Part shown: one piece after another, positions 7,118 to 26,288 of the stretch
How the letters are laid out: each line of letters starts with the position of its first letter
How positions within the stretch are numbered: the first letter of the stretch is position 1
From: Prosthecobacter sp.
Lineage (GTDB): Bacteria; Verrucomicrobiota; Verrucomicrobiia; Verrucomicrobiales; Verrucomicrobiaceae
Assembly: GCF_029946185.1 (NCBI RefSeq)
Contig: NZ_JAQSEA010000136.1
Location: forward strand, 1-40,785
Direction: 5' to 3'
Length of the DNA: 40,785 nt
Notes under the pieces: generated by a model
Seen by the model: only the letters and a program-made list of their open reading frames with translations
Databases searched by the model: none
What the model was told of the DNA's origin: nothing
Translations under genes and position numbers: made by a program

Positions 7118-7158
7118 TTGTAAAAAGTCTTAAACCGCTGACCCTATAGTCCCAAACT

Positions 7159-7587: not shown

Positions 7588-7617
7588 TGTTCCATTTCAC
7601 TGCGAAGTGAAGTGCCT

Positions 7618-9258: not shown

Positions 9259-9395
9259 GGCGGGAGCAGGTTGGAAGCAGGATATTTTGCTGGAACGAAG
9301 CGCGGGTTGCAACTCCTTCGCTCAATCCTGTTTTTTCGACCTATCGCACGCTCTGACGCTGATGGGCGCGATGGAGATAAGCGGAGCTTTGTGTC

Positions 9396-9487: not shown

Positions 9488-9539
9488 TAAGAGGAGGGAT
9501 GCGGGCGCTCCGGTTTCCATAGTCCTCCATTTCCCGGCG

Positions 9540-9962
9540 TCACGCAGTGGCGGAGTTGCGTTCGGCTGCGTTGATCTCGCTGATCTGGGTGTTGAGGGTG
9601 CAGAAGTCGTAAACGACGCCGACGAGAAAGAGACCGCCGGTGCAGAGGTAGATGAGGCCGGAGATCCATTTGCCCATGTAGAAACGGTGCACGCCGAAGA
9701 TGCCCAGGAAGGTGAGGAGTATCCAGGTGATGGAGTATTCGAGATGGCCTTGGGCGAAGCGGTGGTCGGCATCGCGATCCATGCCGGGGATGAGGAACAG
9801 GTCCACGATCCAGCCGATGAGGAAGAGGCCGCCGGTGAAGAACCAGAGGATGCCGGTTTTCGGCTTGCCGAAGTAAAAGCGATGCGCGCCGGTGAAGCCG
9901 AAGATCCAAAGGAGGTAGCCGACCAGCTTGTTATGGGTGGAAGGAAGAGGGATGTTGTTCAT
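9540..9962 (-). CDS. Membrane protein with two TM2 domains
   Basis: A 140-residue integral membrane protein made of two TM2 domains in tandem. Each has a short helix, a loop with the signature GxHRFYxGK (GAHRFYFGK and GVHRFYMGK), and a second helix LFLIGWIVD or LFLVGVVYD. The family is widespread and poorly understood. The tandem duplication within one chain is clear because both halves align over about 55 residues. Start ATG 9962 gives MNNIPLP; an ATG at 9980 would add six residues, and neither has a ribosome binding site. The C-terminal tail is polar and probably cytosolic. Confidence 0.82.
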   Translation of the reverse strand: MNNIPLPSTHNKLVGYLLWIFGFTGAHRFYFGKPKTGILWFFTGGLFLIGWIVDLFLIPGMDRDADHRFAQGHLEYSITWILLTFLGIFGVHRFYMGKWISGLIYLCTGGLFLVGVVYDFCTLNTQISEINAAERNSATA

Positions 9963-10079
9963 AGCTGTGTGTATCATCATGCGTTGTGAAAATCATGCGA
10001 TTCCAAGTTTTCGCCGTTTTCGCAACCGGTGGCTGAAGGCTGGACAAGCAGAGGCTGGGGCGGCTAAGCTCGATTTACT

Positions 10080-10421
10080 ATGAACACCGCTGATCTTGTC
10101 TTTGTGGGTTTCAATCGTCGTGTGGCTGCACTGAAGCGCCAGACAGGGGAGCTTGTGTGGGAATGGAAAGCGCCCAATGGCTTGTCTTATGTAAGTCTGC
10201 TGCTGGATGGTGAAATGCTGATCGCCTCGGTGAATGGGTATATGTATGGGCTGGATGCGGCGACGGGAAACGAGCGATGGTACAATGAGATGAAGGGGTT
10301 TGGCACGGGTGTGGCGGCGCTGGTTTCTGTGAATGGGATGAGCAGCAATCCGGTGATGGCGGCGGCTGAGGAAGCGACGCAGGCGAGTCAGTCTGCTGGG
10401 CCGGTCAGCACGAGTACCTGA
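10080..10421 (+). CDS. Short PQQ-like beta-propeller repeat protein
   Basis: A 113-residue protein with two PQQ/BamB-like blade motifs: RRVAALKRQTGELVWEWKAP (about 13-32) and GYMYGLDAATGNERWYNEM (about 53-71). The A-x-TG-x-x-W pattern is typical of PQQ-dependent dehydrogenase and BamB blades. Only about two of the seven or eight blades of a full propeller are present. There is no signal peptide, and the tail after residue 75 is low-complexity (Ala, Ser, Thr). It may be a genuine small relative, with similar short proteins in which the TG..W repeats stand alone, or a surviving piece of a larger gene. The start codon lies at the beginning of the first strand and fits either view. Confidence 0.6.
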   Translation: MNTADLVFVGFNRRVAALKRQTGELVWEWKAPNGLSYVSLLLDGEMLIASVNGYMYGLDAATGNERWYNEMKGFGTGVAALVSVNGMSSNPVMAAAEEATQASQSAGPVSTST

Positions 10422-10483
10422 TGCGGCTCGAGGACGCAGAAAGGAACATTGCGGACAATGGCGGATGCACTAAAGTGTACGGC

Positions 10484-10744
10484 ATGACTCTGACTGTCAC
10501 CATTCCTGACGTGCTTGCTGCTGCACTCCAGCGAGTGCAGCCTGCTTTGCCACAGGTGCTGCTCGACGGGTTTGCAGTGGAAGCCTAACGGGAGGGCATA
10601 CTCTCGGCGGCAGAGGTGCGTGTGCTGCTGGGGCATGAATCGCGCTGGGAAACAGAAGATTTTCTTGCCGCACATGAGGCATGGCCAAGCACCACTCCGG
10701 AAGAAATTGCAGCTGATGGAAGCAGGTTATGCTTGGTGTCGTGA
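10484..10744 (+). pseudogene. Small antitoxin-like gene broken by one stop codon
   Basis: Translation from ATG 10484 gives MTLTVTIPDVLAAALQRV and continues for 34 codons to an in-frame TAA at 10586-10588. The same frame then runs on without interruption for 51 more codons, with REGILSAAEVRVLLGHESRW and FLAAHEAW, to TGA at 10742-10744. Read through the stop, the roughly 86-residue product has the layout of UPF0175-type small DNA-binding antitoxin proteins: an N-terminal strand, a helix, EA-Y-REG-LS-AEVR-LLG, and a Trp-rich tail. A tyrosine codon (TAC/TAT) turned into TAA would explain the break. No toxin partner is recognisable next to it. It could also be a sequencing error. Confidence 0.55.
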
Positions 10745-10801
10745 CTGGCCTTCAATTCAAGTGGCATGGCGCTGAAAGTTGACGCATAGCACATCTGCGC
10801 T

Positions 10802-10904
10802 GGCATCGCTACGCGATGCCCATGCATGGATATGTTTATGCGCACGAAACGAGGGGTGTCGCTTCGCTCAACCCCTCGCTACTGGCTTTGATGGCTACGC
10901 CATC
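10802..10904. repeat. Second cluster of GC-TAC-GC hairpins
   Basis: Perfect hairpins GGCATCGC-TAC-GCGATGCC (10802-10820) and GATGGC-TAC-GCCATC (10890-10904) flank GAGGGGT...ACCCCTC (10851-10857 and 10871-10877), whose loop holds CGCTTCGCTC. The tips match the cluster at 9396-9487, and CTTCGCTC matches the hairpins at 56-81 and 281-315. These appear to be one family of dispersed palindromic elements. The rest of the gap between the broken small gene and the pnp terminator holds no gene. Confidence 0.5.
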
Positions 10905-10957
10905 TCGAAGTTCGGCGGCAGCTTGAATCATCAAGTGAGCGTGCCCTGCCAGATGCA

Positions 10958-10990
10958 CCAAAAAAAGAGGCCGCTTTGCAGCGGCCTCTT
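10958..10990 (-). terminator. Intrinsic terminator of pnp
   Basis: AAGAGGCCGCT (10965-10975), a TTGC loop and AGCGGCCTCTT (10980-10990) form an 11 bp perfect stem. Read on the minus strand, the stem is followed by a T-run (complement of the A-run 10960-10966), about 30 bases after the pnp stop codon. Confidence 0.88.
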
Positions 10991-11019
10991 CGTGGTTTTG
11001 AGTATTGAGCGGATGAGGC

Positions 11020-13179
11020 TTAGCCGAGGTCTTCGGCAGGAGCGGCGTCGCCGTTTTCGCCGGCGGCGGCAGCTGCGTCCTTGTCTTTCATGGCGGCCTT
11101 GCGGCTCATCTTGATGCGGCCCTTGTCGTCGATGCCAATGCACTTGGCGGAGACGATGTCTCCGGTCTTGACGACGTCTTCGGTGCGGTTGACGCGGAAG
11201 TCGGCGAGTTCGCTGATGTGGATGAGGCCGTCCTTCTTGCCACCGAGGTTCATGAAGGCACCGAAGTTTGTGGTGCTGACGACTTTACCTGTGTAGATCT
11301 TGCCGACTTCGATTTCCTGGGAGGTGCCGCTGATCATTTCGATCGCGCGCTCGATGCCTTCCTTGCGGCTGGCATAGACGTACACCGTGCCGTCGTCTTC
11401 GATGCTGATTTCAGCACCGGACTCGGCCTGGATGGCCTTGATGTTCTTGCCGCCAGGGCCGATGAGCTCACCGATCTTGTCAGGGTTGATCTTGATGATC
11501 TCGATGCGCGGGGCATACGGGCTGAGAGGCTGCACTTCAGCGATGGCCTGGGCCATGGCGAAGAGAACCTGGGTGCGGCCTTCCTTGGCCTTGACGATGG
11601 CTTCTTCGAGGATGCGCAAAGGCAGGCCTGGAAGCTTGAGGTCAAGCTGGTAGCCGGTGACGCCTTCGGAGGTGCCGCAAAGCTTGAAGTCCATGTCGCC
11701 GAAGTGATCTTCGCTGCCGATGATGTCGAGCATCGTGAGGTAGCGGGTCATGTTTTCGCCTTCGAATTCGGAGACGAGACCGACGCTGATACCGCCGACT
11801 GGGCGCTTGAGAGGAACACCTGCATCAAGGAGGGCCATGACGCCGGAGCAGACGGAGGCCATCGAGGTGGAGCCGTTGGACTCCATGACTTCGCTGCTCA
11901 CGCGGATGGCGTAAGGGAAGTCAGCCTTGGCTGGGATCACTGGCTCGATGGAGCGTTCAGCGAGGGCACCGTGGCCGATTTCACGACGATTCTGACCACC
12001 GAAGCGGCCGGTTTCACCGACGGAGAACGGAGGGAAGTTGTAATGAAGGATGAAGCGCTTGGATTCCGGGCCACCTGCGTAGGTGTCCATTTCCTGAGCT
12101 TCGTCAGCCGGAGCGAGGGTGGCGATGGAGAGAGCCATCGTTTCGCCGCGGGTGAAGCTGGCGGAACCGTGGGTGCGGGGAAGCACGGAGGCTTCGCCAG
12201 AAAGCTGGCGGAGCTGGTCGATGCCGCGACCGTCGCAACGGCTCTGCTTGTCTAGGATGGAGATGCGGAAGGCTTTCTTCTGGATGTAGTCGAAGGCCTG
12301 GCTGATTTCAAAGCCGGTGGCTTCTGGGAACTTGGCTTTGATGGCCTGCTCGACTTCGTCCTTGAGGGCGCCGACGGCTTTGCCGCGAGCCACTTTGGAA
12401 GGGGTGTAGAGAGCGCCTTCGATGCGATCGCCAGCGACGGCGTAGGCGATTTCGAGGAGTTCGTCTTTCACGAGCATGAGAGGAACTTCGCGCTTGGCCT
12501 TACCGGCGAGGCGGGTGAGTTCTTCCTGGGCGACGACGAGCTTGACGACTTCGCTTTGTGCAAAGTGAAGGGCTTTGACGAATTCCGCTTCTGGGATTTC
12601 GTTGGCGGCGCCTTCGATCATGACGACTTCGGTCTTGTTGCCGACGTACACGAGGTCCAGATCGCTTTCGAGGCGCTGCTTCTGGGTCGGGTTGACAACG
12701 AACTCACCGTTGATGCGGCCGACGCGGACGGCACCGACTGGGCCTGCGAACGGGATGTCCGAGACGCAAAGAGCGGCGGAGGCACCGTTCATGGCGCAGA
12801 TGTCCGGATCGTTTTCGCCGTCTGCGCTGAGCAGGATGGCAACGACCTGGGTGTCATAGAGGTAGCCTTTCGGGAACAACGGGCGCAATGGGCGGTCCGT
12901 CATGCGGCAGGTGAGGATTTCCTTTTCAGTCGGACGGCCTTCGCGCTTGAAGTAACCGCCGGGGAAACGGCCTGCAGCGGAGGCTTTTTCCTTGTACTCA
13001 ACGGAGAGGGGGAACCAGTCCTGGCCTTCCTTGAGCTTCGTCGCGGAGACCGCAGTGACGAGGATGATGGTGTCGCCGAGACGCACGGTAACGGCGCCGT
13101 CAGCAAGCTTGGCAAATTTGCCGGTTTCGATTTCGAGGGTGCCAGCACCGAGCTGGACTTTTTGTGTATGAATGGCCAT
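11020..13179 (-). CDS. pnp: Polyribonucleotide nucleotidyltransferase (PNPase)
   Basis: Phosphorolytic 3'-5' exoribonuclease of 719 residues, part of RNA degradation machinery. Domains in order: first RNase PH domain (about 10-145, with KEKASAAGRFPGGYFKREG), helical linker (about 150-245), second RNase PH domain (about 320-550, with FTRGETMAL and the catalytic-region GSEDHFGDMDFKLCGT), KH domain (about 555-615, with GPGGKNIKAI) and S1 domain (about 620-690, with GKVVSTTNFGAFMNL). A short Ala/Asp/Glu-rich tail follows. Length and order are normal for the family. It lies 177 bases downstream of rpsO on the same strand, the common rpsO-pnp pair. No Shine-Dalgarno site is seen. Confidence 0.97.
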   Translation of the reverse strand: MAIHTQKVQLGAGTLEIETGKFAKLADGAVTVRLGDTIILVTAVSATKLKEGQDWFPLSVEYKEKASAAGRFPGGYFKREGRPTEKEILTCRMTDRPLRPLFPKGYLYDTQVVAILLSADGENDPDICAMNGASAALCVSDIPFAGPVGAVRVGRINGEFVVNPTQKQRLESDLDLVYVGNKTEVVMIEGAANEIPEAEFVKALHFAQSEVVKLVVAQEELTRLAGKAKREVPLMLVKDELLEIAYAVAGDRIEGALYTPSKVARGKAVGALKDEVEQAIKAKFPEATGFEISQAFDYIQKKAFRISILDKQSRCDGRGIDQLRQLSGEASVLPRTHGSASFTRGETMALSIATLAPADEAQEMDTYAGGPESKRFILHYNFPPFSVGETGRFGGQNRREIGHGALAERSIEPVIPAKADFPYAIRVSSEVMESNGSTSMASVCSGVMALLDAGVPLKRPVGGISVGLVSEFEGENMTRYLTMLDIIGSEDHFGDMDFKLCGTSEGVTGYQLDLKLPGLPLRILEEAIVKAKEGRTQVLFAMAQAIAEVQPLSPYAPRIEIIKINPDKIGELIGPGGKNIKAIQAESGAEISIEDDGTVYVYASRKEGIERAIEMISGTSQEIEVGKIYTGKVVSTTNFGAFMNLGGKKDGLIHISELADFRVNRTEDVVKTGDIVSAKCIGIDDKGRIKMSRKAAMKDKDAAAAAGENGDAAPAEDLG

Positions 13180-13242
13180 AGGTTGGCGTGTGTGTGTTGT
13201 TTGGTTTGGGTGAAAATAGAATGCGGGCTTCAGCCCAGCAGC

Positions 13243-13295
13243 GATGCGCGAGAGTGCGCATCATGCAGCATGAAACATCGGCTGTGCCGACATGC
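13243..13295 (-). promoter_or_regulatory. Structured rpsO-pnp intercistronic leader
   Basis: Between rpsO and pnp the transcript can form several stems: GATGCGC/GCGCATC (13243-13249 and 13256-13262) and a longer bulged one combining GCATG/CATGC (13268-13272 and 13291-13295) with TCGGC-TGT-GCCGA (13278-13290). In Escherichia coli, PNPase represses itself through an RNase III-cut stem in this same position. Whether that occurs here is inference. Confidence 0.4.
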
Positions 13296-13310
13296 TTGTA
13301 GTAGCCTGAA

Positions 13311-13344
13311 ACAGAAAAGGGGCGATGCGCGTGGCATCACCCCT
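13311..13344 (-). terminator. Terminator-like hairpin after rpsO
   Basis: AGGGGCGATGC (13318-13328) pairs with GCATCACCCCT (13334-13344) with one wobble and a 5-base loop. On the minus strand it is followed by TTTTCTGTTT. It lies 13 bases after the rpsO stop and may partly terminate rpsO transcripts, leaving some readthrough into pnp. Confidence 0.7.
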
Positions 13345-13356
13345 CGTAAAATTCTG

Positions 13357-13617
13357 TTAGCGGCGGAGACTGAGGCCCTTGAGCAGCTTCTGGTAGCGCT
13401 CGTTGGCAGTCACTTTGAGATAGTCAAGAAGCTTGCGACGACGTGCGACCATCTGAAGGAGGCCGCGACGTGTGGAGTGATCTTTCTGATGCTTAGCCAG
13501 GTGCTGCGTGAGATCATTGATCCGCTTCGACAAGAGGGACACTTGGACGTCGGCGCTGCCGGTGTCTTTTTCGTGGATCTTGAAGGAAATGGAATCGGTG
13601 GTGGTTGCTTCGCTCAT
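13357..13617 (-). CDS. rpsO: 30S ribosomal protein S15
   Basis: An 86-residue ribosomal protein that binds 16S rRNA early in small-subunit assembly. Family landmarks are [22 protein letters not shown], the [21 protein letters not shown] core that contacts rRNA, and the basic C-terminus LKGLSLRR. Length is normal (usually about 89). It is followed by a partial terminator and pnp on the same strand. The 151-base gap upstream (13618-13768) separates it from the stop of the giant secreted protein gene; its own promoter is presumably there, but no strong -35/-10 pair stands out. Confidence 0.97.
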
Positions 13618-13768
13618 GGTTCGTTTGAATGGCCGGACAACTTGTCAGGCGGTGTGTATTCTGGGATGTGGGGCTGCGAAGGAACCATAAACGCCCTTTT
13701 TGGCAAGGAGAAGTTTGGGGAGTTTGCGGATATTGGCAGTGGTTTTCGGAGGTTGGAAGGTGGTGTTT

Positions 13769-16700
13769 CTATGGGAGAACCCAGCCGTGGGCGGCTGTGG
13801 CAGGCTGCACTTTCAAGAAAAACGCACGGTGGGCGGGGATTGGGAGCGTGGCGCTGACGTTCAGGAGGGAGACGCTGCTTTTTGCGGTCCAGTAGGCGGT
13901 GGGAGAACGCTTGACCAGCCAGAAGGCGTCATAGGTGGTGGCTCCGGCCACGCGGTCGGCCAGCCAGAGCTGAAGCTGGTCGGCGCTGGTCATGCTGGTG
14001 GAGGCGGCGAAGCCCGACTCAGCGCTCAGGCCCAGTCGCAGCGGGGTGGAGTCCACCGGCCAGGGCAGGGCGAGGAGGTTTTGCCCTACGTCCAATGATT
14101 TGCGCCAAGGGCCCAAACGCACGTGGCCTGTGAGTGTGGTGGACTTGGGCTGGGTGGCAGCTTTGACCATGAGGCCTGTGCCGGGAGGGATGATTTTCGC
14201 GTTCTGTGAGAGCTGCGCGGCATCCGCAGAGGAGACCCACTGGCGGACGCCGGAACGTGCCGAGAGCCAATGGGTGTGCCATGCACCGTTCTCATAGAAG
14301 AGCACCTGATCGGCGGCTGACGCCACCGCCGCAGCCTGAAATACTTCCACAGGAAACGCCTGCGCCAGCGTCACATGCGGACGCAGCACTGCACGAGCGC
14401 CCATCAAGTCTTCCGGCAGAGCTTGGAGGGTGCTGAGCGGAGAAGCGGAAAAGATGGTGGCGACTCCGCCAATGAGAGTGTCGATTTCAAAACGATGACC
14501 GGCGTGTGCGCCGTCCAGCACTTCGAGATAGCAGGAAGTGGCGGCATCGACGTGAATCGCCTGCGCATTGGCGAGGATGAGCGCCGACGGACCGGACAAC
14601 TGCGAGATGTGACCGGCATACAAGGGTGGATTGACAAGGGAGATGCCTGCGGTTTGCGATCCTGCCGTGAAAGTGAAGCTCTGCCAGGCCTGAGGTGGGG
14701 TGACTGAGCTGGCACCGTCACGATACGTTACACGCAGGCGGAGGATGCCACGCTCCTTGTCCTGGCCACTCAAACTGCTGATGCCGCTCCAGGTGAGCTG
14801 TTCCATATCACCGCTCAGGAGCGTCGGGGTGGGTGCCAGCAGCAATGATGTCCAGGTGCCGAGATCCGTCGAGCTTTCGAGGGAGAACGAAACTCCGGTG
14901 ATGCTGCGAGGATGGTTGAGATGCGCATCCACGCGTCCATCGCTCGTGGTGGTCAACCACCAGCCCCCATCGAAGCCAGCGTCATTACCAAGAGCGAATT
15001 CGATGAGGTCACTGACGCCATCACCATCGAGGTCTGCCTCCGCACCGGGCTGAGTTGAGGTGGAAAGAAGGGAGGTGGTTTGAAGAGAGGCAGGGGAAGT
15101 GCCGAGAACATTTGTGACGATGGTGGCCGCTGGCGGCGTGGGGGCGGCCTGGATGATCTGCACGTTGTCAAAGGTGGAAACGCCGAGGTCGTAAGGAGAC
15201 GAAGACGTGACGGCCAGACCTATGTGCACCCCGGTGGAGAGGCCGGTCAGCGTGGTGCTGCCGATCAACGTCCAGGCGCTGCCATTGGCGGATGCATAAG
15301 CGGTGAGCGTGTCACCGGTGCGGACGAGGCGAACCCAGTTGTTTGGCGCGGCGTTTACCGCAGGTCCGCCTGCGTAATCGGAGTCTGCATTGACGGTGGA
15401 GCGCGACACCATGCCGAAGCCGTTGTTTTCCGCGGCGGGGGTGGTGAAGGCGATGGCGTGACGTGCGCCTGCGGTCAGGGTCTCACGGATCATGACGCCG
15501 GTCTTGCACCAAGAGTTGGTGCTGGCCTGAGTGGTGATGCGCGCGCGGATCTCGCCATTGCCGGTGAGCTGAGTGCTGGCGTAGTGGAAGCCGTCTGCGG
15601 CGAAGAAGATGTCCTCCCCTGCCCCGCGCAGTGTGTAGGTGTCCGTGCTGCTGTTGTAAACGGAGCTGCCTGCGAGCTGCACGGTGCCGATGTCCTGTCC
15701 CTGCAATGTGGTGACCACCGGTGGCGTGTAGGTGACGCTCAGGGTATTTGAGGCGGTACTGCCCGCGGCACCGACATTTTGCGCCGCATTGGCGGGCAGT
15801 GTCGCGGTGACAGCGCCGGTCGCGACGGGAGTCAACGTGATGCTGTAGCTTGTGCCGGAGCCGGTGAGATTGGAGGCTGTGGCATTTGCCACCACGAAAT
15901 CGCTGAGGGTGAGACCGGTGACGGCCTGGCTGAACTGCGCCTGCACGGTGAAGGGTCCGACTTCGGTCGAAGAGGCGGCACTAAGCGTCACTGATGGAGG
16001 CACCAGTGCGAGCGCACCGACGACCTGCACATTGTCGAAGGTGGAGGTGGCGAGCGCCGAGGGAGAAGAAGAGGTGACAGCAAGGCCGACATAGACGGTC
16101 TGGGTGAGACCGGTCAGCGTGGCAGTGCTCATGAGTGTCCAGGCATTGCCATTGGCAGAAGCGTAGGCGCTGATGGTGGTGCCGCTGCGCACCAGTCGCA
16201 CCCAATTGTTTGGCACTGCATTTATAGCGGGGCCAGCGGCGTAGTTTGTGGCTGCGTTGGCGGTCGGACGCCAGACCATGCCGAAGCCGTTGTTCTCTCC
16301 GGCAGGGGTGGTGAAGGCCATGGCATGACGTGCGCCGGCGGTGAGCGCCTCACGCATCATGACACCGGTTTTGGACCAGGGATTGGTGTTGCTCTGGCTG
16401 GTGACACGCGCGCGGATTTCGCCATCGCCGGTGAGCTGAGTCAGCGCGTAGTGGAAGCCGTCTGCGGTGCCGTAGATGTCGCTGCCAGATCCTTTCACGG
16501 TGTAAACGCCGCTGCTGAAAGTGGTGCTGCCGGCCGCGAGTGGCGCGCCTAAATCCTGGCCAACGAGAGCCACGGCTGCTGGCACGGTGAAAGTCACAGA
16601 GACCGCGTTGGAAGCGGTGCTGGAAGTGGCTGCGGCATTTTGAGCCGCGCCTGCTGGGAGGCTCACGGTAACGACACCGGCCGCCACTGGAGTCAAGGTG

Positions 16701-19700
16701 ATGGCATAGGCCGCGTCGCTGCCGGTGAGATTGGAGGCGGTCGCATTGCTCACGACAAAATCGGACAAGGTCAGGCCGGTCACGGACTGGCTGAACTGCA
16801 CCTGCACGGTGAAGGGGCCGGTTTCGATGCCGGAGGCTGCGCTGAGGGTAACGGAAGGCGACACGACGGTCTGCGCGCCGATGACCTGCACGTTGTCAAA
16901 CTCAGCCGTGGCGGTCAAACTGCTGTCGGCAGCGGTCGCGGCCAGTCCGACATACACCTGCGCGGATAGATTGGTCAGGGTGGTGGAGCTCACGAGCACC
17001 CAGGTGCTACCGTTGGCGGAGGCGTAGCCGGTGAGGACATTGCCTTCACGCACGAGGCGCACCCAGTTGTTTGGCGCAGTGCTCATGGCGGGGCCGCCTG
17101 CATAACCGGTGGTGGCATTGGCGGTGAGACGAGAGACCATGCCGAAGCCATTGCCTGCGTCTGGAGGGGTGATGAACATCATGGCGTGGCGTGAGCCAGC
17201 GGCGTGTGTCTCGCGAACCATGACACCTGCCTTTGCCCAAGGATTGGTGTTGGTGAAGCTGCGGACCCGAGCGCGCACTTCGCCATCGCCACTGAGCGCC
17301 ACGTGCTCAAAGCGGAAGCCGTCTTCGGTGGAGTAGATGTCCGTCCCCGAGGCGACGAGTGTGTGGACGCCGGTGCTGATATTGATGCTGGTCGATCCGG
17401 CGAGGAAGCCGCTGCCGATGTCCTGGCTGACGAAGGCGGGGCCGCTGGTCGCTGCCGAGTAGGTGCGAGTGAGAATGTTGGAGGCAAGGTTTGTCACCGT
17501 GTCCGCATCCTGCGCCTGACCTGCGGCAATGCTGAGAGTGACATTGGCCGTCGGTGTGATGGTGAAGCTGTAAGTGGTGCCGGAGCCGGTGAGAGCGCTG
17601 GCGGTGCCGCCGGTGACGCTGATGTCTGCCAGCGTGAATCCTGTGACGGTATGACTGAAGGTGGCGGTGACACCGAAGGGGGCGCTCACGGAAGCTGGAG
17701 CTGCGGTGGCGAGTTCCACGGTGACTGGCAGAGGCGCGGAGACGGGTGCGTTGTCGATCTGCTGGAGGTAGGCGACGAGATTGGCGAGGTCCGTTGGATT
17801 TAATGTCACGCCCTGATGCGCGGTGACGGCGTCTGCCAATGTGGCCGAGGAGCCGTCGTGCAGGAAAGGGGCGGTGGCCCAGAGGCCGCGCAGGGTGGGG
17901 ACATCGAAGCCGGTGAGCGCGCCATTGAGGCGTTTGCCGCTGGTGGGCTGCTTGATGGTGCCGACATCGCGGAAGACATTCAGTGAGCTGTTGGTGAAGG
18001 GTGCGCCGCTGTGGCAGGAGGCGCAGTTTTGCTGACGGAAGACGCGCTCGCCGGACGCAGCGGCCGTTGTCAGGGTGCCGTCCGTATTGCGATTCGGGCT
18101 GCTGGATTCTGTGGTGAGAGAGGTAACGTAGGCGGCGAGGGCATCGAGGTCGGGGCTTACTCCGGCCTTGGAATCTCCCAGCGGCTGATTACGGGTGCCG
18201 GTGTTGAATTGAGCATCCGTCATGAGGCCGGTGCCGCCGGAGAAGACGCGGATCTGTCCTTCGAAATCATGCACCTCGTCGAAGTTGCCGGTCCAGTGCA
18301 GTGCACCATGCGCGCCGTGGCCGCGCAGTGTGATGGTGTTGCGCAGGCCTTCGCCGACGCCGGTGAAGTCCCAGGTGCGACCGTCGTGACCGCCGTCATT
18401 GTGACAGGAGGCGCAGGAGATGTATTCCTGCAGAGCGACGCGCACGTCCGCCGCATCGTAGAAGAGTTGTTTACCCTTCAGCACAGCGGCGCTGAGTTTT
18501 TCGGTGGTGACGGTGCTCACCACGCCCAGGGTGGGAGGGGTTGCACTGCCGCCTTGGATGAGGCTGCTGACGTCATGCACGCTGACGGAGCGGCTCATGA
18601 AATTATGCACGAACAGAGTGCGGCCATCGGGTGAGAGCGCGAGACCTTGAGGAGCGAGGCCTGCGTCGAAACGGGTGATCACGGTCTTATTCCATGCGTC
18701 CACCACGGCGATGGCGCGGCTGCTTTCCAAGGCTACGAAGATGTAGATGCCCCAGGGGTCAAAGGCGGCGGCGCTGGGCATGCCGGCGTTGTCGAAGTCC
18801 ACGCGGGCCGCGTAGTCCTCCGCCTGCGTGCTGAGATTGATACGGCTGGCGATGGCGCGCAGTGACTGATCGTGATTGAGGCTTTCGCCATTGCGAAGCG
18901 TGCCGCGCTTGATGTTGTCCTGCTTGGAGGGCACCCAGGCGGAAAGGCCGTCGGGAGAAATGGCGGTGGCGCCGAGGTAGTTCGGGAGGCCGCGTGCGGA
19001 GGTGGGGGTGTCGGCCTGCTCGCTGTGCTGGAGAAGGATGGTGCGCTCCAGTGCGAGCGTGGAAGCGGTAACGACGAGGACCTCGCCACCGCGCCCGGTG
19101 GTCGTGGGTGCGGCGGTGTTTTCACCGGGCAGAGGAGGCGTGATGAAACGGCTGACATAGACACGTGCGCCATCAGCACTCACGGAGACATGGCGAGCAT
19201 GCTGTCCGGTGGTGAGCGTGGCGATCTGTGCGCCGGTGCTCGGATTGAGCTTGAGCAGGCGGCCGCTGCCTTCGAGCGCCACATAGGCGGCAGTGCCATT
19301 GGGATCGAACGCGATGCCAAAAGGGCGTGCGCCGCGTGGCAGAGTGAGTGTGGCGGCCAAGGCGTAGGTGGTGCCGTTGAGGATGGAAATGGTGGAGCTC
19401 TCCGCATTGGTGACCCACACGCGGCCATCGGGCGCGAGTGCGAGGCTGCGGGGTGCGGTGCCGACGCTGGTCTCGGCCAGCTTGGCGCGAGTGACTGAGT
19501 CGAGCACGGTCACGCTGTCGGTGTCCGGATTGACGAGCCAGACGCGGTCATTGCCCGTGGCGCGATCTTCGAATATGAGGCTGGAGGAAACGGCGGGCTT
19601 TTTCGCGGTGAGCGGCGCATACACGGCCTGGAAGAAGGTGCTGGTGACGACTGCGCCGGTGTCATCGGTAGCAGTAACTACCACGGTGTAGCGGCCTGGA

Positions 19701-22699
19701 TTTGCAAAGGTGTGGCTGATGCTGGCGCTGCTGCTGTAAGCAGTGAGAGCTGTGCCGTCGCCAAAGTTCCAGCGGAAGCGAGGGTTGGCACCGCCGGTGC
19801 TGGCGGCGGTCAGAGTGACAGCACCGCCTGAGCCTGCGGGCGCGGATTGCGGCGGCTGCATGACGAGGCCGTTGCTGATCACCCAGGAGAAGGAAGCGGT
19901 CGCGGGAGTGGTATTGCCATCGGTCACGCTGACGGTCGCGGCGAAGGTGCCAGCGGCGGTGGGTGTGCCGCTGATGACGCCGGAGGCTGCATTGATGGAA
20001 AGGCCGGTGGGAAGACCGGTGGCGCTGAAAGCGAGTGTGTCCTGATTTGCGTCCGTGGCCTGGATGGCGAGAGAGGTTGCTTGATTGATGACGCCGGTAC
20101 GTGTGCCGGGGTTTGTCACCACGGGAGGGGTGGGAGAGGCGAAGGCATTCACGTTGACCTGCCAGGCGAGGACTTCGTGCGTGTTGGTGGAGCCGCCGGT
20201 GGCACCGGTGAAACCCATCCATGCGCTGGGGCCGACGAGATTGGCGAGCTTTAGCGCGGTCTGGGTGAGAATCGGAGTCGCGGGCTTGGTGGTGCTGATG
20301 CCCTGCACGATGTAAACGCGCAGCGTGTCGGAGGGGCCGTCGTAGTCCACCCAGAGCGTGTGGCTTTCACCGTTCTCCATATCGAAGGTGGGCGTGGTGG
20401 TGCCCAGGTGCGGTGAGACGACACCATTGGTGAGTACACCGATGTGGTTGGCATTGGGGTCGGTGCCACCGGCGTAGGTGTCCAACTCGATGGCGAGACT
20501 TTTCAAAATGCCTTCATAGCCTTCACCGCCGCCCGGAGCGCCGAGCGCGGTGGCGGCGTTTCCTTGCAGCACGAAGGTCATGCCGTCTGCGCCATCGCCG
20601 GTGCCTTTCATGCGGAAGACGAAGCGGCTGGTGAAGGAGGTGCCTTCGGAGACGGGAACGGGTGCGGTGAGGCAAGCTGAGCCTGCCTGATTGCCCGTGT
20701 TGGGAGTCAGGACGAGGACGCCATTGCTCACGCTGGTGCTGCCATTGAGCTGAAGGCCGGCGGCCGAGGGGAAGCTGGCAAAGTTTTGACTGACATTTGG
20801 CGGGGTGATGGTCCAGGTGAAGGTGGTGCTGGCAGTGGTGATGCCATCGGTCACGGTGACTCGTGCGCTGCTGAAAGTGCCGGTGGCGGTCGGCGTGCCG
20901 CTGATGACGCCGGTGCTGGAATTGATGGCAAGTCCGGTGGGCAGACCGGTGGAGGAGTAAGTGACTGCGCCATTGCCGGGAGCCACGCCGTAAACAGCGA
21001 GTGTGGCCGGTGCATTCACGGAGCTGAACTGGCTGCCGGGATTGGCCATCGAGACGCTTTGCACTGGATCTACCTGAATGATCTTCGCGATGGAGTAGGC
21101 GCCATTGGAGGCGACGCCAAAGAGCATCCAGTAGCCGGGGGTCATCACGCTGAGGTTGGTGTGGCCTTGCACGGCGTAAACGCCGGGAGCGGTTTCTGTG
21201 AAAGGCAGGCTGAGATAGCGGAGGTCAGTGTTCATCGAGTGGGTTTGCGATGACATTTTGATGAAGCTGAACTTGGTGATGCCGGGAGTGGCCTGCACGG
21301 CAAAGGTTGTGCCGATGCCGATGTAGGCGGGGGACTGGGTGATGACGGGACGAGCGGCCAGGCTACCGTCCGAATTGTAGAGCATCGGCGGAGTGAAGAG
21401 CTGCCCGTCCCGATGGTCGGCGCTGTTGCCGGAAAGGCCGCCACCACCGGACCACACACGACCGTCTGGGAGCAGCAGCGCGAGGGAGTGATAGTTGCGG
21501 GGCACGCTCATGGGCGCGAGCTGCCGCCACTGGCGCGTGGTGGGATTCCACAATTCGGGGACCAGCACGGAGCCTGTGTCATTGAACTTCAAGCCGGAGG
21601 TGTTGCCGCCGATGACAAGCACTTCGCCATTGGGAAGGATGACGGAATTGGAAAACTGGCGTGTGTAGGACATCGAGGGGGCGCTGGCCACCACGGGTGT
21701 GCCGGTGCGGATGTCGATGGTGAAGGCGAGATTTGTGCTGGTGCCGGTGGAGCTGTCCGATGCGTTGGGGGTGGTGCTTGCTGAGCCGCCTGCCACGAGA
21801 ATGCGGCCTTCGTCATACATGGCGAAGGAGCCTTCCTTGGGATAGTGCGCGCCGGGGACATTGACACCCGAATAGGTGAGGCTGCCGGTGGCGGAGGTGG
21901 TGAGCCAGTTCATCCGGTCGGTGGGGCCCCCGTGAAACAGACGGCCATCGGGTGCGACAACGATGAGCGGATGCCAGCGCGTGACATAACCTGGCAGGGC
22001 GACCTGCGGGGCCCAGTTGATGCCGGTAAGCCGCGCCCATCCGCCAGCGGAGGTCCAGCGCTCTGCGGTGTTGGTGCCACCGTCGCCGGTCACGGTGAAG
22101 ACGCTGCCGTCGGTCAAGGCCACACTGGTGTTGTACCAGCGGCCATCGTTCATGTTGGGCAGAGCGGTCCACTGATTGGTGCGCCAGTCGAAGACACTGC
22201 TGAGCTTGGTGGTATTGCGCCCGCCATTGATGACGACCCGGCCGTCCGGGAGCATGGAGGTGCCACCGCAGAACATGTCGTGGCGGGTGTTGTTGATCTC
22301 GGTGAAGACGCCGGTGGCGGGGTTCCACACGGCAGCGTAGGTGAACTCCGGCCCCCCAGGAAAGGTGGTGCGCTGGTTTGAGGCAAAGGTGAGGAGGCGT
22401 CCGTCTGGCAGGGTAGCGGCGGTCACGGGAATGTGCGGGCTCCAGGCGATGACGCTGCCCCATTCCCCCAGGGAGATGCGATTCACCGCCACGGTGGCGG
22501 CGGGTGCTAGCAGGGTAAAGGCTGGAGCGAGTGACTGGGCTTCGGCGGAAAGCTGGTCGCTCAAACCATGATCGTCCGTGCCAGCGGTGAGGGAGGTGGA
22601 AATGAAGCTACCGATGAGAACAAAAGCCGCAGAGCGGGTCAGAAAACCAAACCATGAAGACAACGCCGCCTTACTATTCGCTTTTTTTGTAATTTTCAT
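13769..22699 (-). CDS. Giant secreted copper radical oxidase/lectin/di-haem cytochrome fusion
   Basis: A 2976-residue extracellular protein in one unbroken frame. Residues 1-40 are a Sec signal ending SLTA. About 55-560: galactose-oxidase-like Kelch propeller plus DUF1929-type C-terminal domain, with C144 and Y189 (cross-linked cofactor pair), Y403-H404 in NYHS and H487 in THSMN. About 565-632: putative Ig. 635-850: legume-type lectin. 855-940: putative Ig. 948-1030: PKD (FGDGT). 1035-1390: YVTN-type propeller. 1390-1650: di-haem cytochrome c with CASCH at 1429-1433 and 1559-1563 and a peroxidase-like FLHDGSSATLADAV end. 1650-2520: three Ig-like domains alternating with three DUF1349-like domains. 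2550-2572: DLDGDGVSD calcium-type loop. 2572-2976: unrecognised C-terminal domain. Start ATG 22699 gives the signal peptide; the frame opens 22 codons earlier. Substrate is unknown. Confidence 0.88.
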   Translation of the reverse strand: MKITKKANSKAALSSWFGFLTRSAAFVLIGSFISTSLTAGTDDHGLSDQLSAEAQSLAPAFTLLAPAATVAVNRISLGEWGSVIAWSPHIPVTAATLPDGRLLTFASNQRTTFPGGPEFTYAAVWNPATGVFTEINNTRHDMFCGGTSMLPDGRVVINGGRNTTKLSSVFDWRTNQWTALPNMNDGRWYNTSVALTDGSVFTVTGDGGTNTAERWTSAGGWARLTGINWAPQVALPGYVTRWHPLIVVAPDGRLFHGGPTDRMNWLTTSATGSLTYSGVNVPGAHYPKEGSFAMYDEGRILVAGGSASTTPNASDSSTGTSTNLAFTIDIRTGTPVVASAPSMSYTRQFSNSVILPNGEVLVIGGNTSGLKFNDTGSVLVPELWNPTTRQWRQLAPMSVPRNYHSLALLLPDGRVWSGGGGLSGNSADHRDGQLFTPPMLYNSDGSLAARPVITQSPAYIGIGTTFAVQATPGITKFSFIKMSSQTHSMNTDLRYLSLPFTETAPGVYAVQGHTNLSVMTPGYWMLFGVASNGAYSIAKIIQVDPVQSVSMANPGSQFSSVNAPATLAVYGVAPGNGAVTYSSTGLPTGLAINSSTGVISGTPTATGTFSSARVTVTDGITTASTTFTWTITPPNVSQNFASFPSAAGLQLNGSTSVSNGVLVLTPNTGNQAGSACLTAPVPVSEGTSFTSRFVFRMKGTGDGADGMTFVLQGNAATALGAPGGGEGYEGILKSLAIELDTYAGGTDPNANHIGVLTNGVVSPHLGTTTPTFDMENGESHTLWVDYDGPSDTLRVYIVQGISTTKPATPILTQTALKLANLVGPSAWMGFTGATGGSTNTHEVLAWQVNVNAFASPTPPVVTNPGTRTGVINQATSLAIQATDANQDTLAFSATGLPTGLSINAASGVISGTPTAAGTFAATVSVTDGNTTPATASFSWVISNGLVMQPPQSAPAGSGGAVTLTAASTGGANPRFRWNFGDGTALTAYSSSASISHTFANPGRYTVVVTATDDTGAVVTSTFFQAVYAPLTAKKPAVSSSLIFEDRATGNDRVWLVNPDTDSVTVLDSVTRAKLAETSVGTAPRSLALAPDGRVWVTNAESSTISILNGTTYALAATLTLPRGARPFGIAFDPNGTAAYVALEGSGRLLKLNPSTGAQIATLTTGQHARHVSVSADGARVYVSRFITPPLPGENTAAPTTTGRGGEVLVVTASTLALERTILLQHSEQADTPTSARGLPNYLGATAISPDGLSAWVPSKQDNIKRGTLRNGESLNHDQSLRAIASRINLSTQAEDYAARVDFDNAGMPSAAAFDPWGIYIFVALESSRAIAVVDAWNKTVITRFDAGLAPQGLALSPDGRTLFVHNFMSRSVSVHDVSSLIQGGSATPPTLGVVSTVTTEKLSAAVLKGKQLFYDAADVRVALQEYISCASCHNDGGHDGRTWDFTGVGEGLRNTITLRGHGAHGALHWTGNFDEVHDFEGQIRVFSGGTGLMTDAQFNTGTRNQPLGDSKAGVSPDLDALAAYVTSLTTESSSPNRNTDGTLTTAAASGERVFRQQNCASCHSGAPFTNSSLNVFRDVGTIKQPTSGKRLNGALTGFDVPTLRGLWATAPFLHDGSSATLADAVTAHQGVTLNPTDLANLVAYLQQIDNAPVSAPLPVTVELATAAPASVSAPFGVTATFSHTVTGFTLADISVTGGTASALTGSGTTYSFTITPTANVTLSIAAGQAQDADTVTNLASNILTRTYSAATSGPAFVSQDIGSGFLAGSTSINISTGVHTLVASGTDIYSTEDGFRFEHVALSGDGEVRARVRSFTNTNPWAKAGVMVRETHAAGSRHAMMFITPPDAGNGFGMVSRLTANATTGYAGGPAMSTAPNNWVRLVREGNVLTGYASANGSTWVLVSSTTLTNLSAQVYVGLAATAADSSLTATAEFDNVQVIGAQTVVSPSVTLSAASGIETGPFTVQVQFSQSVTGLTLSDFVVSNATASNLTGSDAAYAITLTPVAAGVVTVSLPAGAAQNAAATSSTASNAVSVTFTVPAAVALVGQDLGAPLAAGSTTFSSGVYTVKGSGSDIYGTADGFHYALTQLTGDGEIRARVTSQSNTNPWSKTGVMMREALTAGARHAMAFTTPAGENNGFGMVWRPTANAATNYAAGPAINAVPNNWVRLVRSGTTISAYASANGNAWTLMSTATLTGLTQTVYVGLAVTSSSPSALATSTFDNVQVVGALALVPPSVTLSAASSTEVGPFTVQAQFSQAVTGLTLSDFVVANATASNLTGSGTSYSITLTPVATGAVTATLPANAAQNVGAAGSTASNTLSVTYTPPVVTTLQGQDIGTVQLAGSSVYNSSTDTYTLRGAGEDIFFAADGFHYASTQLTGNGEIRARITTQASTNSWCKTGVMIRETLTAGARHAIAFTTPAAENNGFGMVSRSTVNADSDYAGGPAVNAAPNNWVRLVRTGDTLTAYASANGSAWTLIGSTTLTGLSTGVHIGLAVTSSSPYDLGVSTFDNVQIIQAAPTPPAATIVTNVLGTSPASLQTTSLLSTSTQPGAEADLDGDGVSDLIEFALGNDAGFDGGWWLTTTSDGRVDAHLNHPRSITGVSFSLESSTDLGTWTSLLLAPTPTLLSGDMEQLTWSGISSLSGQDKERGILRLRVTYRDGASSVTPPQAWQSFTFTAGSQTAGISLVNPPLYAGHISQLSGPSALILANAQAIHVDAATSCYLEVLDGAHAGHRFEIDTLIGGVATIFSASPLSTLQALPEDLMGARAVLRPHVTLAQAFPVEVFQAAAVASAADQVLFYENGAWHTHWLSARSGVRQWVSSADAAQLSQNAKIIPPGTGLMVKAATQPKSTTLTGHVRLGPWRKSLDVGQNLLALPWPVDSTPLRLGLSAESGFAASTSMTSADQLQLWLADRVAGATTYDAFWLVKRSPTAYWTAKSSVSLLNVSATLPIPAHRAFFLKVQPATAAHGWVLP

Positions 22700-24043
<1,344 letters not shown>

Positions 24044-24064
24044 GTTCCACTTCACAATCGAGTT

Positions 24065-24300
24065 CCGCACCGGCTGGCAAACTGCCACCGGTGCGGCGAT
24101 TGGAAATGTAGAATGAGCCGATGGCTAGCACCGGCCTGTGGCTGAGACGAGCCACTCGTCCGCCGGATCAGGCGCACTCACGCTTCAAACTTTGACACAC
24201 GGCAATGCAGCGTGCCGGACTGGCTTCGCTGTTTTGTAGGATGTCGATTCTTCGTCAATCGGGGTCATGCGAGAGCACTGATCGACGGACAGGAGTGTCC
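24065..24300. repeat. Hairpin-rich gap after leuB
   Basis: The 270-base gap between leuB and the convergent hydroxyacid dehydrogenase holds no gene. CCGCACCGG/CCGGTGCGG (24065-24073 and 24088-24096) with inner TGGC/GCCA is a long perfect stem, but no U-tract follows on either strand. GACGAG-CCA-CTCGTC (24146-24160) overlaps the competing stem GTGGCT/AGCCAC (24138-24143 and 24150-24155), so only one can form. GGACA-GGAG-TGTCC is at 24287-24300. The stems may serve as 3'-end structures for the two converging transcripts. Confidence 0.4.
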
Positions 24301-24313
24301 ATCGTACTGAGCC

Positions 24314-25270
24314 TCACCCGTTCACCACATTTACGGGCTTGCCTGCGAGGAAGGCTTTCAGGTTGGCGGCGGTCATGTCGATGAGGCGGACGCGGGATTC
24401 GCGGCTGGCCCAGGCGACGTGGGGAGTGATGAGGCAGTTTTTGGCGGTGAGGAGGGGGTTGTCGGCTTGGGCGGGTTCGGCGGAGAGGACGTCGAGTCCG
24501 GCAGCGGCGATGCGGCTTTCGTTGAGGGCTTGGGCGAGGGCGGGTTCATCGACGAGGGGGCCGCGGCCGGTGTTGATGATCATGGCTTCGGGCTTCATCA
24601 GGGCGAGGGTGCGTTCGCCGACGAGGTGCTTGGTGGCGTCGGTCAGGGGGCAGTGCAGGCTGATGACGTCGCACTGGCGGAAGATGTCGTCGATTTCGGC
24701 GGCTTCGACGCCGACGGGCGGTGCTTCCTTCCAGGTGCGCTTGGAGGCGAGAACCTTCATGCCGAAGGCGACGGCGATGCGTGCGACGGCGCTGCCGATT
24801 TCGCCGTAGCCGATGATGCCGAGGGTGCGGCCGGAGAGCTCGATGATGGGGTGATCGTAGTAGCAGAAGTCGGGGCACTTGACCCAGCCGCCTTCTTCCA
24901 CGCTTTTTGCTGCGTGGCCGACATGGTTGGTCATTTCCAACAGCAGGGCGATGACGTGCTGAGCGACGGCGGGGGTGCTGTAGCCGGGGACATTGGTGAC
25001 GACGATGCCGCGTTCTTTGGCTGCGGCGACATCGACGATATTGAATCCAGTGGCGGTAACTCCGATGTATTTCAAATCGGGCAATGCTGCGATGATTTCG
25101 CGGGTCAGCGGGGCTTTGTTGGTGATGACGATCTCTGCACCGGTGCAGCGGGCGACGGTTTGATCCAGCGGCGTGCGTGGATGCACCTCACAGGTGGCGA
25201 TGGCTTCGAGGGGCTGCCAGGAGAGGTCGCCAGGATTTGCGGTGTGGGCGTCGAGAAGAACGATTTTCAT
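24314..25270 (-). CDS. D-2-hydroxyacid dehydrogenase (hydroxypyruvate reductase-like)
   Basis: A 318-residue NAD(P)-dependent dehydrogenase for a D-2-hydroxyacid; glycerate dehydrogenase/hydroxypyruvate reductase is the closest impression. The N-terminal substrate domain contains TNKAPLTREII and KYIGVTATGFNIVD. The nucleotide-binding domain begins near residue 145 with LGIIGYGEIGSAVARIA. Catalytic residues are visible in order: Arg in NTGRGPLVDE, Glu in LSAEPAQADNPLL and His in ITPHVAW. Length is typical (310-330). ATG 25270 starts directly at the first beta strand (KIVLLDA). It is divergent from the ThuA-like gene, with which it shares about 217 bases of upstream DNA. Confidence 0.9.
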   Translation of the reverse strand: MKIVLLDAHTANPGDLSWQPLEAIATCEVHPRTPLDQTVARCTGAEIVITNKAPLTREIIAALPDLKYIGVTATGFNIVDVAAAKERGIVVTNVPGYSTPAVAQHVIALLLEMTNHVGHAAKSVEEGGWVKCPDFCYYDHPIIELSGRTLGIIGYGEIGSAVARIAVAFGMKVLASKRTWKEAPPVGVEAAEIDDIFRQCDVISLHCPLTDATKHLVGERTLALMKPEAMIINTGRGPLVDEPALAQALNESRIAAAGLDVLSAEPAQADNPLLTAKNCLITPHVAWASRESRVRLIDMTAANLKAFLAGKPVNVVNG

Positions 25271-25487
25271 GTGAGCCTGATTCTATGCCGACGATTCGGC
25301 GGTGCTCCACTCAAATTCGCCGAGGGGATTGGGCGTTCCACCGAAGGTTTGCATCCCAGATATTTACCATGCCTTTTACAAAATCGCCCAAGCAAGAGAC
25401 GAGTTAAAGAACCGCGCCCGGTTGAGAATCATGAAAGACAAACCCTACATTTCGCGCATACTCGGGCTCTCAACTTCATCCGCCGTC

Positions 25488-26288
25488 ATGCGTCCCCTTC
25501 TCATCTCCCTGCTTTCCATCGTCTGTCTGCTTGCCGTCGCCGCCCCAAAAGAGGAGGTGAAACCGCTCAAGGTTCTGATGGTCACGGGCGGCTGCTGTCA
25601 TGACTACGAAAACCAGAAGCTCATCCTGAGCGAAGGCCTCAGCGCCCGGGCGAATGTGGAGTTCACCATCGTGCACGAAGAAGGGCCGGAAGGTAAAAAG
25701 GACAAGAGCCACAAGATCTCGATCTATGAAAAGGACAACTGGGCCGAAGGCTATGACGTGATCCTGCACAACGAGTGCTTTGGCGGAGTCGAGGACGTGG
25801 CGTTTGTGGAACGCATCGCCAAGGCGCACCACGACGGTGTGCCGGCAGTGATGCTGCACTGCTCCACCCACAGCTACCGCACGGCCAAGACGGATGAATG
25901 GCGCAAGTGCGTGGGCCAGACCTCGATGAGCCACGAGAAGAACCGCGATTTGAAGGTGAAGAACATCGCCGAAGGGCACCCGGTCATGAAAGGCTTCCCA
26001 GCGGAATGGCTCAACGCCAAAGATGAACTCTACAAAAACGAAAAACTCTGGGAGCACTTCGTTCCGCTGGCCAAGGCCTATGGTGAAGACACGAAGATGG
26101 ACCACAATGTGGTCTGGGTGAATGAATACGGCAAAGCCAAGGTCTTCGGCACCACGCTGGGCCATGGCAATGAAACGATGCAGTCGCCCGTGTATCTCGA
26201 CCTCGTCGCACGCGGCCTGCTATGGGCCTGCGGCAAGCTGGACGAAAATGGGAAGCCGCTGCCGGGCTACGAACCGAAACAGAAGTAA
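25488..26288 (+). CDS. Secreted ThuA-domain protein
   Basis: A 266-residue protein with a Sec signal peptide (MRPLLISLLSIVCLLAVAA) and a ThuA-like, class I glutamine amidotransferase-type fold. Recognisable segments are LKVLMVTGGCCHDY, GYDVILHNECFGG, GVPAVMLHCSTHSYR and VWVNEYGKAKVFGTTLGHGNET, the last typical of ThuA proteins in Planctomycetota and Verrucomicrobiota. The family is linked to trehalose/disaccharide utilisation in rhizobia, but in these phyla it is widespread with unknown substrates. Start ATG 25488 is chosen because the signal peptide begins there; an ATG at 25431 would add 19 residues before it. It ends 6 bases before the convergent hybrid kinase stop. Confidence 0.88.
   Translation: MRPLLISLLSIVCLLAVAAPKEEVKPLKVLMVTGGCCHDYENQKLILSEGLSARANVEFTIVHEEGPEGKKDKSHKISIYEKDNWAEGYDVILHNECFGGVEDVAFVERIAKAHHDGVPAVMLHCSTHSYRTAKTDEWRKCVGQTSMSHEKNRDLKVKNIAEGHPVMKGFPAEWLNAKDELYKNEKLWEHFVPLAKAYGEDTKMDHNVVWVNEYGKAKVFGTTLGHGNETMQSPVYLDLVARGLLWACGKLDENGKPLPGYEPKQK

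Follow-up and report, generated by a model that had tools for sequence, protein, structure and literature searches.

A copper radical oxidase joined to a YVTN propeller and a di-haem domain in Prosthecobacter and other bacteria, and its possible link to MbnP-MbnH

What would a single secreted chain do with both a copper radical oxidase and a di-haem cytochrome domain? The question is raised by a reading frame, P0001, on the minus strand of a 40,785-nucleotide (nt) stretch of DNA from Prosthecobacter sp. (Verrucomicrobiaceae; assembly GCF_029946185.1, contig NZ_JAQSEA010000136.1), to which we refer as the window. A first-pass annotation, made from the sequence alone, had described a long uninterrupted frame, without giving its strand, in which a complete set of galactose-oxidase-type ligands is linked through a lectin, a PKD domain and a YVTN propeller to two CASCH haem sites, and had suggested an extracellular oxidase/peroxidase or electron-export machine tethered to glycans. 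The frame exists, with 2998 codons; profile searches place both the oxidase and the cytochrome regions above curated cut-offs, as they do the lectin, PKD and YVTN parts between them, and we regard this anatomy of the fused chain as nearly certain. As to function, our preferred reading, held tentatively and with somewhat less than even confidence, is that P0001 is an exported copper radical oxidase that binds glycans and has a one-electron wire built into its chain, loaded with copper and/or activated by MbnP-MbnH, a di-haem protein that unites the copper protein MbnP and the MauG-like enzyme MbnH in one chain and is encoded beside the oxidase in many relatives.

The oxidase unit consists of a Kelch propeller and a galactose-oxidase-like early-set domain (coordinates and residue counts are in Table 1). 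Against Pfam, P0001 scores 60.5 bits with GO-like_E_set (PF09118; curated cut-off 25) and 49 bits with Kelch_6, and its best solved relatives are galactose oxidases, 9g8h matching residues 100-565 at 1.3e-99. The ligands given in the first-pass annotation as C144, Y189, Y403, H404 and H487 are C166, Y211, Y425, H426 and H509 of P0001; its residue numbers count from Met23 and are converted by adding 22. We followed these residues through 77 oxidase rows, the window included, after dropping loci in which the oxidase stretch does not exceed 350 residues (by our reading L117, L130, L131 and L135), and counted a row as fused when its di-haem score exceeded 200 bits, a rule by which L108 falls out. 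All five residues are present in P0001 and nearly invariant in the 55 fused rows. With the active-site residues conserved across these rows, an inactive oxidase serving as an adhesin is unlikely.

The substrate is a separate matter. The SW of the GGSWSGG stretch in 9g8h, whose family has a stacking tryptophan (Trp290), lies opposite a deletion in P0001. Because the stretch that holds it is shortened, and a tryptophan inside the shortened stretch, before E-x-W, occurs in just one of the 77 oxidase rows (L069), we do not call P0001 a galactose oxidase, and galactose specificity is not implied. Its score with the radical copper oxidase GlxA (NF052501) is 146.9 bits, under the equivalog cut-off of 800, and its match to Pfam Glyoxal_oxid_N also falls under the cut-off; the RWY motif of the fused oxidases resembles that of glyoxal oxidases. 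Sugar-binding modules vary between relatives, which carry legume lectin, CBM6/35, PA14, H-lectin or jacalin domains, and this variety suggests polymer-bound substrates.

Behind the lectin and PKD domains, the YVTN repeat of P0001 scores 64.8 bits (NCBIfam cut-off 27.85). A structure model of the propeller and di-haem domain has a mean pLDDT of 89.9 and a pTM of 0.91, and the modelled propeller finds hydrazine synthase beta (5c2v_B) with the top Z score (37.9; rmsd 2.0, 305 residues aligned) and an archaeal surface protein next (Z 36.4), an order that is reversed by Foldseek E-value. Nearly all matches in the fold search with this model were propellers, and they barely covered the haem half. 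By sequence, the closest solved relative of the di-haem domain is hydrazine synthase gamma; the domain also matches 1iqc and 3o5c, both di-haem peroxidases, at about 1e-13. Both CASCH sites, numbered 1429-1433 and 1559-1563 in the first-pass annotation and 1451-1455 and 1581-1585 in P0001, are present, and CxxCH is found at each in every one of the 57 di-haem rows, in all of which His1636, Asp1500 and Glu1502 are also invariant.

The residues beyond haem 2 bear most directly on the type of cytochrome. No methionine follows haem 2 in the window di-haem domain, and the sole tyrosine there, Tyr1666 in the last helix, is replaced by phenylalanine in 14 of the 57 rows; in a profile-profile alignment with MbnP-MbnH (probability 99.4) the ligand tyrosine of MbnH lies opposite a gap. 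By HMMER or by profile-profile alignment, neither a methionine nor a conserved tyrosine is found after haem 2. The catalytic glutamate of di-haem peroxidases, the E of LxEQ near haem 1, is aligned with Asp1500 in 1iqc, 3o5c and 1eb7 and is gapped in the profile-profile alignment; Glu1502 lies two residues on. The lack of a peroxidase methionine and of a MauG tyrosine, with a nearly invariant histidine (His1650) as likely ligand, leads us to read the in-chain unit as a putative electron relay, probably with His/His ligation, although the alignments of this stretch differ. An in-chain MauG-type enzyme is unlikely, the ligand tyrosine being absent after haem 2.

We considered whether the frame could be an artefact of assembly, as the first-pass annotation had allowed. 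Misassembly is ruled out by a second gene of the same kind in the same genome, by the order leuB - gene - rpsO - pnp, identical in L060, L061 and L063 (L062 is cut), and by the recurrence of the architecture across independent assemblies. The paralogue extends over two contigs, C73 and C263, with the same 28 nt at their ends; the portion on C263 matches early-set, PKD, cytochrome, Big_12 and PA14 profiles and, at 1e-5, no lectin. Among 387 genomes of the phylum, its own included, 20 have any match at 1e-20 and eight have oxidase and di-haem domain in one frame. One scan of named genomes, made with an oxidase alignment, gave 80 loci, and the profiles applied to them were built from the seven first-fetched relatives and the window. 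Oxidase, propeller and di-haem domain share one frame in 57 of them; in 10 a contig or locus end truncates the gene, in two the parts are separated (in L073 through an in-frame stop, in L076 through a frame break) and 11 are oxidase only, comprising the frame-broken L098 and ten whose oxidase-profile scores stay below 500 bits (L125 with 499.8). Like L073, L076 and L098, L051 (genome G260) is interrupted by an in-frame stop or frame break; these are otherwise well-conserved chassis or fusion genes, affected by either decay or sequencing error.

By recorded taxon, 52 of the 80 loci are verrucomicrobial and 28 are not, and 15 of the latter are fused, in Pseudomonadota, Chloroflexota, Acidobacteriota, Rhodothermota, Deinococcota and Myxococcota. 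The fusion is not rare, occurring in seven phyla by recorded names, many of the records being metagenome-assembled genomes and some names (e.g., Akkermansia muciniphila) looking doubtful. Cultured Verrucomicrobia are among the sources, for example Brevifollis gellanilyticus (L068) and Roseibacillus persicicus (L112). Since L077, L079, L097 and L112 appear to duplicate L043, L044, L046 and L045, the 80 loci and the seven first-fetched relatives are not to be summed. An oxidase tree, made by a quick method, rooted at its midpoint and subject to long-branch effects (Chloroflexi L127-L129 with Myxococcota/Acidobacteria rows), separates the Myxococcus/Archangium-type and MGR_bin331 oxidase-only rows with full support and places three Chloroflexi oxidase-only rows on the same side as the fused rows.

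All seven first-fetched relatives have, directly upstream of the fusion, a frame that is some 600 residues long and contains two further CxxCH sites. The five proteins of this kind that were scanned all match MbnP (PF20243; 83-117 bits, cut-off 27) and CCP_MauG (176-191 bits, cut-off 25.6) in Pfam; with the NCBI equivalogs TIGR04052 and TIGR04039, the best scores in three of three were 45.3 of 140 and 254.9 of 362.85 bits, under the cut-offs. In a structure model (mean pLDDT 78.9, pTM 0.73), residues 30-242 match MbnP 7l6g (Z 17.8, rmsd 2.8, 199 aligned) and residues 263-578 match MbnH 6e1c (Z 26.8, 39% identity). The MauG/MbnH ligand tyrosine, aligned to that of 6e1c, and both haem sites are kept in 26 of 26 rows, as are the candidate residues of a kynurenine copper site, Trp75, Trp140, His139, His168 and His215 (L064 numbering) of the MbnP half; the catalytic glutamate place holds Glu in 19 rows, Asp in four and Gln in three.

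MbnP-MbnH stands upstream of the oxidase in 30 of the 80 loci, each of them verrucomicrobial. Among the 45 verrucomicrobial loci that have 2.2 kb or more of upstream sequence, 29 carry it; the thirtieth case has slightly less sequence upstream. None was found at the 28 other loci, 22 of which have 2.2 kb upstream. The two genes may overlap by 4 nt in 19 of the 30 and are 2-356 nt apart in the remaining 11; one of the 30 upstream genes (L074) is frame-broken. In the phylum sample, where we tallied rows spanning both halves, all eight fusion genomes have MbnP-MbnH beside a copy, and 13 of the 379 others encode a fused MbnP-MbnH. The Prosthecobacter genome follows this pattern through its paralogue, which has MbnP-MbnH upstream; the window copy does not. 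Separate di-haem genes also occur near the fusion outside Verrucomicrobia: the Pseudomonadota loci L106 and L111 have a CCP_MauG gene just upstream. Other di-haem genes in the vicinity are CCP_MauG with a YtkA domain in L111 (2891-4618), CCP_MauG in L104 at 17367-18899 (minus) and DHOR in L116 at 7644-8999 (minus).

From these parts we propose the following mechanism. The lectin parts would bind the enzyme to a polysaccharide, and alcohol or aldehyde groups of this polymer would be oxidized at the copper-tyrosine (Cu-Tyr) radical site, while the in-chain haems, perhaps bis-His, would relay electrons one at a time between that site and an external partner. The haems may draw electrons from the Cu-Tyr site, making the enzyme partly a dehydrogenase, or may withdraw one electron to give the Cu(II)-radical state in which it is active. 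MbnP-MbnH, with a tyrosine ligand in its MauG-like half, may load the copper and/or supply the oxidizing equivalent, and the single MbnP-MbnH found in the window genome could serve both oxidase copies. We propose it as loader or activator because of a fungal peroxidase precedent, because the copper proteins MopE and CorA are paired with MauG-like enzymes, and because MbnH reportedly makes the kynurenine of MbnP, as Manesis and colleagues are said to have described in 2021. The fungal precedent is a secreted haem peroxidase whose gene lies head to head with that of a copper radical alcohol oxidase; by taking one electron from this oxidase, the peroxidase activates it (PMC9770985). MopE and CorA have a kynurenine near the copper, and their genes adjoin those of MauG-like di-haem proteins (PMC3912023).

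Several observations weigh against this proposal. All of our conservation and adjacency counts are inflated by relatedness among the genomes, and in the window chain more than 800 residues separate the oxidase unit from the haem unit. The bis-His ligation perhaps present in the haem unit rests on alignments in disagreement: with HMMER, His1650 falls on the peroxidase methionine of 1iqc and 3o5c (two of five alignments), that methionine is gapped in 1eb7 and 4aao, and for hydrazine synthase gamma the gap lies opposite His1650. The profile-profile alignment puts His1650 opposite an invariant histidine beyond the tyrosine, so a histidine in the Met/Tyr place is the result of only one of the two alignments. 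The unfused Nitrospirales row L125 sits among fused rows of the oxidase tree, and the PKD-YVTN-di-haem chassis is found without an oxidase, preceded there by LVIVD, Big_5 or laminin-G parts, which makes the oxidase one of several heads that the chassis can carry. Such frames without an oxidase match occur in L047-L050 and L052-L056; eight of these nine, all but L047, were scanned and have such front parts. Together with the long and variable stretch between the units, these frames speak for a looser modularity, in which the chassis would be a surface platform with an ordinary oxidase attached by chance and no electrons exchanged. We consider such an arrangement rather unlikely, as all uncut and unbroken frames with an oxidase score above 500 bits are fused (L125, just below, is not) and the redox residues on both sides are almost invariant.

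The neighbouring gene is not constant either. MbnP-MbnH is lacking beside 16 of the 45 verrucomicrobial loci with sufficient upstream sequence, namely the four of the window clade (L060-L063), L102, and eleven of the thirteen rows that form another clade, in which L094 and L096 have too little upstream sequence to tell; the window copy has leuB upstream, in the place held by MbnP-MbnH in many relatives. Nine of these 16 loci, in eight genomes, were tested, and all eight genomes encode a fused MbnP-MbnH elsewhere. Genome G285, whose oxidase piece is cut at a contig end, has no MbnP-MbnH match at 1e-50. Any MbnP was found in only three of 12 other fusion-bearing genomes tested, encoded, where visible, on its own and next to a MauG-type gene. 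MbnP-MbnH is therefore not a general requirement, and as a universal partner it is rejected outside Verrucomicrobia. Seventeen MbnP-MbnH places are not beside an oxidase, and seven of the 14 fetched (L170-L183, verrucomicrobial) have a YHYH gene no more than 400 nt away, with PF14240 over its cut-off in all seven and a sulfatase domain in three. With half of the fetched loci adjoining such genes, MbnP-MbnH is not dedicated to the copper radical oxidase; the YHYH gene is a second possible client.

Other divisions of labour between the copper and haem sites can be imagined. Should the Cu-Tyr electrons leave through bis-His haems to the cell surface and not to O2, the chain would be a wired dehydrogenase with the one-chain MbnP-MbnH as copper loader and radical starter, an account that we think unlikely. 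That MbnP-MbnH modifies the oxidase itself, for example by forming or repairing a residue-derived cofactor, and neither carries copper nor activates the oxidase, seems very unlikely: the Tyr-Cys link of galactose oxidase forms by itself with copper and oxygen, MbnP is the substrate of MbnH, and nine of the 12 other fusion genomes lack MbnP. The invariant ligand tyrosine would suit such a role, MauG makes a tryptophan-derived cofactor in its partner, and CorB/SACCP proteins have been proposed as kynurenine makers (PMC3912023). In the oxidase/peroxidase of the first-pass annotation, H2O2 made at the copper site would be used by the di-haem domain for detoxification or for oxidation of a second substrate. 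Oxidase and di-haem domain do share one secreted chain, the CCP_MauG profile and the matches to 1iqc and 3o5c are as a peroxidase would have them, the invariant Asp1500 and Glu1502 lie near the place of the CcP catalytic glutamate, and H2O2 is made by oxidases of the AA5 family (PMC11267884). Assignment to the CcP/MauG class is the less well supported part, as methionine and conserved tyrosine are missing after haem 2. The glutamate place is moreover an aspartate or a gap, the closest solved sequence is from hydrazine synthase, and a MauG-type enzyme with a tyrosine ligand is encoded separately in many relatives, which leaves an in-chain peroxidase fairly unlikely.

The remaining features of P0001 and its surroundings are collected in Table 1. 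Met23 is the second plausible start and seems likely to be the true one; the signal peptide appears to start there. The C-terminal region, which resembles parts of the paralogue and of a giant frame, may be a sorting or anchoring module of giant secreted proteins; in contig C127 of the same genome the similar stretch (24365-25612, L006) lies inside a frame of 8537 codons. In 2-kb windows, G+C is 0.63-0.65 over 14001-22000 vs 0.57-0.60 over 1-14000 and 22001-26000. The neighbours are housekeeping genes, leuB-like upstream and rpsO-like, then pnp-like, downstream, and no candidate partner gene was seen adjoining the window copy. Elsewhere in the window, 26295-31412 (minus) encodes a 1705-codon sensor kinase with SBP_bac_3 (a periplasmic binding-protein domain), PAS, GAF, HisKA/HATPase and receiver domains.

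Table 1. Features of P0001 and its divergent neighbour (positions in the window, residues in P0001 numbering).
Feature	Position	Strand	Residues	Evidence
Whole frame P0001	13769..22765	minus	2998 aa + stop	ORF without internal stop
Candidate signal peptide, with likely true start Met23 (nt 22699)	22580..22699	minus	~23-62	by-eye reading of sequence
Copper radical oxidase unit (Kelch propeller + GO-like early-set domain)	21068..22468	minus	100-566	profile and PDB matches
Cys166, Tyr-Cys cofactor partner	22268..22270	minus	166	53/55 fused rows; gapped in L088 (a cut locus), Ala in L115
Tyr211, cofactor tyrosine, within RWY motif	22133..22135	minus	211	55/55 fused rows; Trp210 likewise 55/55
Tyr425-His426, copper ligands	21488..21493	minus	425-426	each 55/55 fused rows
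His509, copper ligand	21239..21241	minus	509	55/55 fused rows
Legume-type lectin domain	20138..20788	minus	660-876	Lectin_legB 114.2 bits (cut-off 26.3), Lectin_L-type_dom 96.4 bits
Putative Ig domain He_PIG, better of two Ig-like stretches	19877..20128	minus	880-963	Pfam
PKD domain	19631..19846	minus	974-1045	45.5 bits (cut-off 23.5)
YVTN propeller	18554..19585	minus	~1061-1404	profile match + structure model
Di-haem cytochrome domain	17762..18553	minus	~1405-1668	CCP_MauG 34.6 bits (cut-off 25.6); hydrazine synthase gamma 1.8e-15
Haem site 1, CASCH	18401..18415	minus	1451-1455	CxxCH 57/57 rows
Haem site 2, CASCH	18011..18025	minus	1581-1585	CxxCH 57/57 rows
His1490, candidate sixth ligand of haem 1	18296..18298	minus	1490	57/57 rows; putative role
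His1650, candidate sixth ligand of haem 2	17816..17818	minus	1650	56/57 rows; putative role, from alignments
Three Big_12 Ig-like + three DUF1349 units, approximate limits	15131..17725	minus		Pfam
C-terminal region	13772..15073	minus	2565-2998	resembles paralogue (34% identity) and part of giant contig C127 frame (33%)
leuB-like gene, divergent neighbour, outside the system	22937..24043	plus		Iso_dh 448.7 bits

The component families are all known, and their combination appears to be new. No publication on the fusion or on its link to MbnP-MbnH was found among the matches listed in the literature searched, where subscription papers and preprints are thinly covered; galactose oxidase with di-heme cytochrome and beta-propeller gave no match, and galactose oxidase with MauG gave titles on unrelated subjects. 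The word 'cytochrome' is absent from the accessible main text of a 2024 AA5 paper (PMC11267884), and the protein is likely annotated in databases as 'galactose oxidase-like'. Copper radical oxidases are H2O2 makers whose full activity in vitro depends on activation from outside (PMC9770985, PMC11267884); here a haem unit is built into the oxidase chain in several phyla, and the fused chain may work as an oxidizing machine that carries redox wiring of its own. MbnP and MbnH were headed 'mysterious partners' in 2013 (PMC3621798), and the copper radical oxidase offers a concrete candidate client for them outside methanobactin producers.

Four known systems invite comparison. With the AA5 enzymes (galactose oxidase, glyoxal oxidase and GlxA), P0001 has in common the Kelch propeller, the early-set domain, the cysteine, the two tyrosines and the two histidines; it differs in being joined to a propeller and di-haem domain, in its RWY motif and in the shorter SW stretch. 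Like the fungal tandem of peroxidase and alcohol oxidase, the verrucomicrobial system has the gene of a copper radical oxidase paired with that of a secreted haem enzyme; unlike it, it is bacterial, uses a di-haem c-type protein in place of a class II peroxidase and has a second haem unit inside the oxidase chain. The MbnP-MbnH, MopE-SACCP and CorA-CorB pairs are resembled by the upstream gene of relatives, with its matches to both MbnP and MbnH, but the methanotroph pairs are two proteins (PMC3621798, PMC3912023), whereas here both halves form a single chain whose neighbour is a copper radical oxidase. Hydrazine synthase beta-gamma shares the order of a YVTN propeller followed by a di-haem c domain; P0001 scores 84.6 bits with the fused-subunit profile NF052342, under its cut-off of 1250, and carries in addition a fused oxidase.

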